Part shown: in pieces, positions 5,221 to 5,599 of the stretch
Layout: each line of letters opens with the position of its first letter
How positions within the stretch are numbered: position 1 is the first letter of the stretch
From: Microcaldota archaeon
GTDB lineage: Archaea > Micrarchaeota > Micrarchaeia > Burarchaeales > Burarchaeaceae
Reading direction: 5' to 3'
Assembly: GCA_003660965.1 (NCBI GenBank)
Contig: QMVF01000013.1
Span: 1-11,108 of the forward strand
DNA: 11,108 nucleotides
Made by a program: the position numbers and the translations under genes
The notes under the pieces: model-generated
What the model saw: only the letters and a program-made list of their open reading frames with translations
What the model was told of the DNA's origin: nothing
Databases searched by the model: none

Positions 5221-5286
5221 AATGCGGTCTTCTAAGGGAGGTCTTAGGAACCGTAGGTTTCTAATGCGGGGGTGCCAGAGTCCGGA

Positions 5287-5347
5287 ATGGCCCTTTTCCG
5301 CTTCGCGCAAAAGCGCCGGCGGAAAAACGGAAAAGGGTAAATGGAAA
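5287..5347 (+). other. tRNA-Leu intron 1 (D arm, about position 21/22), 61 nt
   Basis: AATGG occurs at both ends (5286-5290 and 5347-5351), so the junction could fall at several points. The only register I found that gives a bulge-helix-bulge has UCCG (5281-5284) pairing with UGGA (5342-5345), a bulge GA|A at 5285-5287 and a bulge AA|A at 5346-5348. The intron body is a hairpin with a perfect 10-bp stem (5291-5300 with 5328-5337). It contains a smaller GCGC-AAAA-GCGC hairpin (5305-5316). The shared ends with intron 3 support this register. Confidence 0.75.
5292..5310 (+). repeat. 19-bp direct repeat, copy 1 (inside tRNA intron 1)
   Basis: CCTTTTCCGCTTCGCGCAA is identical to 5511-5529. Here it forms the 5' arm of the intron 1 hairpin. 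Preceding bases are TGGC, nearly the same as the TGG before the second copy. Confidence 0.9.
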
Positions 5348-5363
5348 ATGGGGGAGGCTTAAG

Positions 5364-5414
5364 AGTCGAAACCTCCGGCAGGTTTCGACGCATCCAGCAA
5401 CCATTGCTGAAGAA
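5364..5414 (+). other. tRNA-Leu intron 2 (anticodon loop, position 37/38), 51 nt
   Basis: This is the standard archaeal intron position. The central helix is C5358-G5412, U5359-A5411 and U5360-A5410, with an A/G mismatch as fourth pair. Bulges are AG|A (5362-5364) and AA|C (5413-5415), so the motif is relaxed. The body holds two perfect hairpins: a 10-bp stem 5365-5374/5380-5389 with a 5-nt loop, and a 6-bp stem 5395-5400/5404-5409 with a CCA loop. A junction one base later (5365-5415) would give loop CUUAAGA but a worse bulge-helix-bulge. Confidence 0.75.
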
Positions 5415-5446
5415 CCCTCCTGGCTTAGCGCCTACGCAGGTTCAAA

Positions 5447-5492
5447 AGGCCTTTTCTTTGGGAAAGAAAAGCTCTGGGAAAAGAAATGGAAA
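5447..5492 (+). other. tRNA-Leu intron 3 (T loop, position 59/60), 46 nt
   Basis: Removing these bases joins TTCAAA to T and restores a standard T loop between the paired GCAGG and CCTGC. A bulge-helix-bulge fits exactly: UUCA (5441-5444) pairs with UGGA (5487-5490), with bulges AA|A (5445-5447) and AA|U (5491-5493). The body has a 9-bp stem 5451-5459/5463-5471 with a GGG loop, or alternatively CUUUUC (5451-5456) with GAAAAG (5478-5483). Position 59/60 is a known noncanonical archaeal intron site. Confidence 0.82.
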
Positions 5493-5508
5493 TCCTGCCC
5501 CCCGCACT

Positions 5509-5599
5509 GGCCTTTTCCGCTTCGCGCAACAAGCTTTTTCCCTTCGGGAAAAAGATGCGCCTTTTTGCTTTGGCAAAAAGTGCGAAGCGTTAACCGGCC
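5509..5599. repeat. Branched palindromic element downstream of the tRNA
   Basis: An outer 8-bp stem CGCTTCGC (5518-5525) with GCGAAGCG (5582-5589) encloses two hairpins. One has a 9-bp stem 5534-5542/5546-5554 with a TTC loop. The other has an 8-bp stem 5561-5568/5573-5580 with a TTTG loop. GGCC boxes (5509-5512 and 5596-5599) could close it further. It fills the space between the tRNA 3' end and the stop of the convergent lipoprotein gene. Possible roles are a two-way terminator, a small structured RNA, or a dispersed palindromic repeat; I cannot choose between them. No protein gene is supported in 5507-5613. Confidence 0.7.
5511..5529 (+). repeat. 19-bp direct repeat, copy 2 (just after the tRNA)
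   Basis: This is identical to the 5' arm of tRNA intron 1 and starts 4 nt after the tRNA discriminator base. It is also the 5' side of the branched element at 5509-5599. It may be a truncated copy of the intron element. Confidence 0.9.

Follow-up and report, generated by a model that had tools for sequence, protein, structure and literature searches.

We identify the segment 5266-5506 of the analysed window (the whole stretch of 11,108 nucleotides) as, very probably, a functional tRNA-Leu(UAA) gene of a micrarchaeote, whose transcript would fold as a tRNA with extra hairpins and whose introns would be spliced out. Multi-intron tRNAs of this kind are known; the gene is the first visible sign of a genome in which introns of a few families interrupt all 24 rebuilt tRNAs. 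The elements of the locus are the following:

5247..5262, plus strand: palindromic leader GGAACC-GTA-GGTTTCT, just 5' of tRNA-Leu(UAA)
5266..5506, plus strand: tRNA-Leu(UAA) gene, entire precursor region of 241 nt (fold, ARAGORN, relatives, strict search)
5266..5286, plus strand: exon 1, with the acceptor 5' strand, U8, the D stem 5' strand and the D loop up to A20 (ARAGORN; agrees with the intron-free relatives L099 and L100)
5287..5347, plus strand: D-loop intron, 61 nt by the bulge rule, or 5287-5345 (59 nt) by the relatives, with the hairpin CCCUUUUCCG/CGGAAAAGGG
5348..5363, plus strand: exon 2, with the D stem 3' strand, the anticodon stem 5' strand, U33, the anticodon UAA and G37; its start is 5346 if the D-loop intron has 59 nt (ARAGORN, relatives)
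5364..5414, plus strand: 51-nt intron of the anticodon loop, at 37/38; two hairpins form within it (predicted fold)
5415..5446, plus strand: exon 3, with the anticodon stem 3' strand, the variable arm, the T stem 5' strand and UUCAAA (relatives)
5447..5492, plus strand: T-loop intron at 59/60, 46 nt (intron comparison)
5493..5506, plus strand: exon 4, with U60, the T stem 3' strand, the acceptor 3' strand and A73 (ARAGORN, relatives)

Excision of the introns restores a canonical type II tRNA with anticodon UAA, as judged from intron-free relatives and from ARAGORN, which types the joined exons as tRNA-Leu(taa). The acceptor stem (5266-5272/5499-5505) is paired at 7/7 positions and the T stem (5436-5440/5494-5498) at 5/5, as read from the sequence and drawn by ARAGORN; the anticodon stem (5353-5357/5416-5420) is also fully paired (5/5) and its loop, CUUAAG, includes the anticodon UAA and G37. 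Folded without constraints, the 241-nt precursor has a minimum free-energy structure in which the acceptor, D, anticodon and T stems all form and the introns make hairpins; the energy of this structure (-98.2 kcal/mol, z = -2.74) is equalled or bettered by 3 of 200 shuffled sequences. A strict tRNA search, which demands flawless pairing in the 7-bp acceptor and 5-bp T stems as well as U8, A14 and a GG within the D loop, returns a single match in the window, at this locus, and none in 100 dinucleotide-shuffled windows (both strands). A chance fold was considered and rejected. The original prediction of a three-intron tRNA-Leu(UAA) with perfect acceptor and T stems, anticodon UAA and G37 is therefore borne out by fold, strict search, ARAGORN and relatives, and its coordinates and exons were right. 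It had also stated that standard finders were likely to miss or mis-type the gene; in the unspliced window ARAGORN reports no tRNA, with or without an intron allowed (up to 3000 nt), and Rfam cmscan reports no RNA family at E <= 1. A self-splicing group I or II intron was rejected on this cmscan result and on length, 46-61 nt being too short for a catalytic core. Just 3' of the gene, at 5511..5529 (plus strand), lies an exact 19-nt copy of the stretch 5292-5310 of the D-loop intron, and downstream of this copy hairpin-like sequence continues to about 5599. The tRNA-Leu(CAA) gene on L031 is also followed by a similar element.

The strongest evidence comes from comparison: the exon joins are supported by relatives with no intron (G001, G009) or one intron (G002) in this gene. 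The joined 83-mer was compared with the assembly that contains the window and with 30 relatives; at E <= 1, 29 of the 31 genomes match, mostly through other Leu genes or pieces. G001, from the same family, carries an uninterrupted tRNA-Leu(UAA) of 85 nt (87% identity over the joined length), and G009, from the same order, an uninterrupted one with 86% identity. For G002, also of the same family, positions 1-69 match in one piece (85%) and positions 67-83 after a gap, i.e. a T-loop intron only. ARAGORN types the G001 and G009 genes as Leu(taa) and misses the G002 gene. Eight window proteins were looked for around the G001 and G002 genes, in loci of only about 3 kb; two that are encoded right of the tRNA have a counterpart close to the G001 gene, and one has a counterpart close to the G002 gene. 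These shared neighbours, together with the intron counts, indicate a single locus with zero, one and three introns.

Within the assembly of the window the 83-mer gives nine matches. Four are pieces of the tRNA-Leu(UAA) locus; the other five are two acceptor-end pieces in other Leu genes (C84, C42), two matches of 14 nt and one of 19 nt, which is exact and sits on C9 at the end of a protein reading frame. A second intact tRNA-Leu(UAA) had been named beforehand as the finding that would speak against the prediction; none was found in this assembly (77% complete). It is most improbable that the locus is a dead pseudogene disrupted by hairpin repeats, with a working copy elsewhere: 23% of the genome is missing, and intron-like sequence does occur outside the tRNA (e.g. 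at 5511-5529), but excision restores all stems, the exons match the uninterrupted relatives at 86-87%, the assembly holds no other copy, and the tRNAs of this genome, with introns in 24/24 of those rebuilt, are hardly all dead.

The junctions of the gene were examined against the bulge-helix-bulge (BHB) criterion, in which each splice site lies in a 3-nt bulge beside a central helix of 4 bp. The T-loop intron is compatible with the bulge rule: a UUCA/UGGA pairing is possible, the cuts would fall at AA|A and AA|U, and the 3' bulge would be AAU. The UGGA near its 3' end can form four pairs with U54-A57, in a helix that is absent from the minimum-energy fold. For the D-loop intron, a UGGA near the 3' end pairs with the exon UCCG in the predicted fold; this site has four pairs but larger loops, and is not a strict BHB. 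A cut between nucleotides 2 and 3 of the bulges places the junction at 5286/5348 (61-nt intron, 83-nt tRNA), and the D loop GGAAAA of three related Leu(UAA) genes implies a 59-nt intron (5287-5345) and an 85-nt tRNA; the counts over the 24 rebuilt tRNAs take this intron as 59 nt. For the anticodon-loop intron the expected central helix shows, by eye, three good pairs only (CUU/AAG) and an A.G. The 37/38 cut of the original prediction yields C38 where relatives have A38, and a one-base shift of this junction is possible. Out of the predicted 61, 51 and 46 nt, the last two fit, with this shift in mind, and the D-loop intron has either 61 or 59 nt, which makes the mature tRNA 83 or 85 nt long. 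The D-loop and T-loop intron ends, which can pair with the neighbouring exon, would make relaxed BHB sites. The ambiguous junctions and the D-loop site that departs from a strict BHB leave a very slim chance that splicing removes some of the inserts but keeps another, e.g. the one in the D loop, as an expansion in the mature tRNA. Against this, D-loop inserts of 53-61 nt are present in six tRNAs of the genome, each of the six has ends able to pair with the exon (several also have short helices in other registers), and the D-loop insert is absent from this gene in G001, G002 and G009.

We infer from sequence that the tRNA-Leu(UAA) precursor, with all three introns, is spliced, and which enzymes do it. 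A broad-specificity endonuclease of epsilon2 type would cut the relaxed BHB sites, and an RNA ligase would join the exons after cutting. RtcB is the RNA ligase that joins exons in archaea. A tRNA_int_endo gene is present in 30 of 30 relatives, and both same-family genomes (G001, G002) have one of epsilon2 type; the G001 endonuclease (386 aa) matches the ARMAN-2 endonuclease 4fz2 over residues 4-386 with 458 bits. This ARMAN-2-like enzyme and the PheS matches (uncultured archaeon LFW-281_7, 73%; Candidatus Micrarchaeota, 49%) fit the earlier guess of an ARMAN-like archaeon and make a micrarchaeote (DPANN archaeon) very likely; a like scan with the ADP-dependent sugar kinase yielded no relative. 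Epsilon2 enzymes are described as cutting relaxed sites (PMC6379350, PMC12397907). In the assembly of the window (77% complete) no tRNA_int_endo gene was found, nor any match to the G001 endonuclease in a search run without positive control; as 23% of the genome is missing, this absence is weak evidence.

The distribution of introns was then considered for the whole assembly (812,789 bases in 138 contigs). RF00005 gives nine matches at E <= 10 and three at E <= 0.01, versus 3 to 47 at the latter threshold in the 30 relatives. Complete tRNAs, 24 in number, were rebuilt from RF00005 matches, a T-loop-intron pattern and the leader palindrome; the pattern favours T-loop introns, RF00005 favours genes with few introns, and the leader palindrome is neutral in this respect. 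The choice of exons was manual and guided by what a tRNA should look like. The 24 exclude three genes truncated at contig ends (Trp-like on L036, Pro-UGG on L077, a Gly gene on L068), and finder matches on the L022 minus strand, L129, L149 and L151 were dropped as clear false ones, by eye. All 24 complete rebuilt tRNAs are interrupted, by 47 introns of 37-110 nt: 22 in the T loop (22 of the 24 tRNAs), 19 in the anticodon arm and 6 in the D loop. The introns sum to 2612 nt, against 1832 nt of mature tRNA. ARAGORN types all 24 hand-joined tRNAs with the expected anticodon, and the L001 tRNA is His(GUG) by the same program. No intact tRNA gene was seen in this assembly, and all nine RF00005 matches fall among the 24 interrupted tRNAs. 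The truncated Trp-like tRNA on L036 (G000:C75) apparently has three introns, namely one in the anticodon arm before CCA, a long one at 37/38 and one in the T loop. Should all tRNA genes be interrupted, translation in this cell would require splicing. As standard models nearly miss the tRNA set (only 2 RF00005 matches pass the Rfam cut-off), estimates of completeness and decoding for such genomes can be wrong.

Comparison of the introns with each other reveals that near-identical ones are present in different tRNA genes and at different positions (D, anticodon, T). Among 1081 intron pairs, 104 score >= 40; ten shuffled sets yield 0 or 1 such pair apiece. The best local match of the Leu(UAA) T-loop intron is to the T-loop intron of tRNA-Arg(CCU) (39/39 nt), and it matches the 37/38 intron of tRNA-Glu(CUC) at 39/40 nt; the T-loop introns of Asn and Gln(UUG) are identical over 55/55 nt. 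The 3' tetranucleotide that was tested forms four pairs (G-U allowed) with exon positions 54-57 in 18 of the 22 T-loop introns. Base 57 covaries with its intron partner (A57 with U in 10 cases and C in 1, G57 with U in 1 and C in 7; Fisher p 0.0012, a value that is too small because T-loop introns are related and not independent). In the tested register the T-loop introns of Tyr, Arg-CCU, Pro-GGG and Leu-GAG form only 1 or 2 of 4 pairs; three T-loop introns have A as first base of the tetranucleotide, and these with Leu(GAG) are the four misfits.

Genome-wide, the core AAAAGCGNNNNCGGAAAAG matches at 21 sites with <=2 mismatches, versus 10 for the reversed pattern. Its 14 sites at <=1 mismatch are distributed as follows: 11 in tRNA introns, one in 23S rRNA, two in C/D-box-like RNA genes (by eye) and none in protein genes. 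The 23S rRNA gene, L181 (G000:C105), is firmly assigned (RF02540, 635 bits) and has two inserts relative to the archaeal model, one of 50 nt (2 in the model), which carries the core, and one of 232 nt (11 in the model). By eye, one insert of L181 combines the tRNA-intron core with a BHB-like pairing. On the other strand of L183 (G000:C36) an intron-like core lies between the D' and C' boxes of a two-guide C/D-box-like RNA, and on L182 (G000:C115) one lies beside C/D-box-like motifs, both by eye; Rfam has no match on L183 or L182. A pattern for a second intron class was rejected: its 10 sites comprise 7 in tRNAs already found and 3 without a tRNA by eye.

Orthologous tRNA genes in the same family contain fewer introns. 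In 17 pairs with G001 the genome studied here has 33 introns versus 12 (more in 14 pairs, never fewer), and in 14 pairs with G002 it has 30 versus 15 (more in 10, never fewer), a contrast that may be inflated, since the table was made by hand and the G001 and G002 genes were mostly found with Rfam, which favours few introns. A same-family orthologue was found for 19 of its T-loop introns; the intron is absent there in 13 cases and present in 6. A search of 117 genomes with the T-loop-intron pattern gives it 15 sites (control 0), second to G047 with 17 (control 2); most genomes have a few sites, and among those listed many are due to chance alone or belong to tRNAs that have no interruption. 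From 20 stretches, hand-picked for an intron-like look and hence no measure of frequency, 18 tRNA genes with T-loop introns were recognized in six further genomes of the class. Introns of the T loop at 59/60 are thus also present outside this genome. G005 (same order, 73% complete) gives 3 RF00005 matches at E <= 0.01, but 2 matches to the T-loop pattern (control 3).

Introns appear to have been gained in this genome rather than lost in relatives. That they are old and were lost in relatives is an unlikely alternative, to which the 59/60 introns of six or more other genomes in the class and the 6/19 shared with a same-family orthologue lend some weight; it agrees poorly with a gene that never has fewer introns here (17 and 14 pairs, subject to the same Rfam bias) and with near-identical cores at different positions within one genome, which point to recent spread. 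The introns may move by transposition. Integration of mobile elements has been proposed as a source of one archaeal tRNA intron (PMC3293823). The introns observed fall into a few families, which occupy all 24 rebuilt tRNAs, mostly in the T loop at 59/60, and one of which is also in 23S rRNA. Tentatively, these families might be tiny mobile elements that move as RNA, that have filled the tRNA set by landing chiefly in the T loop, and that have also reached 23S rRNA and C/D-box-like RNA genes. Such movement could consist, for example, of reverse splicing into loops able to pair with the end of the intron, followed by reverse transcription and recombination. The 10 sites of the reversed core pattern at <=2 mismatches speak against this scheme, and no copy was seen moving.

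The original prediction held that multi-intron tRNAs are known mainly from Thermoproteales. In that order multi-intron tRNA genes and large-scale intron transposition are on record (Sugahara 2008 and Fujishima 2010, as cited in PMC4090602 and PMC4033280), and 59/60 is among the known archaeal tRNA intron positions listed in section 4 of PMC4090602. The statement is nevertheless dated: in the Asgard Atabeyarchaeia and Freyarchaeia 92-95% of tRNA genes have introns (PMC11291895). As in Thermoproteales, up to three introns are found per tRNA, at non-canonical positions, with similar introns across tRNAs, and the shared cores resemble the intron transposition described there; here, however, the lineage is another one, 24/24 rebuilt tRNAs are interrupted, 59/60 dominates, one core is in 23S rRNA, and introns measure 37-110 nt versus medians of mostly 12-25 nt (PMC4090602). 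The Asgard genomes similarly have nearly all tRNA genes interrupted, often at non-canonical positions and over half with several introns; they belong to a different lineage, and intron cores common to several positions are not mentioned in the available text of PMC11291895. ARMAN-1 and ARMAN-2, of a related lineage, have multi-intron tRNAs and an epsilon2 endonuclease (PMC6379350, PMC12397907, PMC4033280), and the 386-aa endonuclease of the same-family genomes is of this type; unlike here, the available parts of these sources describe no T-loop saturation of the tRNA set, and the enzyme was not found in the window's own assembly. No such saturation is reported in the titles and abstract beginnings of open-licence papers on Micrarchaeota/DPANN tRNA introns. 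With all rebuilt complete tRNAs interrupted by few related intron kinds, this genome is a good case for the study of intron spread, and because its relatives carry none, one or some of these introns at orthologous sites, the way in which archaeal tRNA introns are gained can be tested directly, in a lineage independent of Thermoproteales.

The leader palindrome upstream of tRNA-Leu(UAA) recurs in the genome. The pattern AACCN2-3GGTTYY precedes 16 of the 24 rebuilt tRNAs by no more than 60 nt, some of these tRNAs having been found through it, with variants at His and Met; genome-wide it has 72 matches (37+35) versus 9+9 for the control, several of them inside protein genes. It also occurs near an RNase P RNA-like gene (L005, 264-508; 52 bits, Rfam cut-off 84). 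The palindrome resembles a promoter element for genes of stable RNAs. At some sites (L019, L081) leader palindromes are in tandem, and on L050 (G000:C7) the 95-nt anticodon intron of tRNA-Thr(GGU) holds a complete one.
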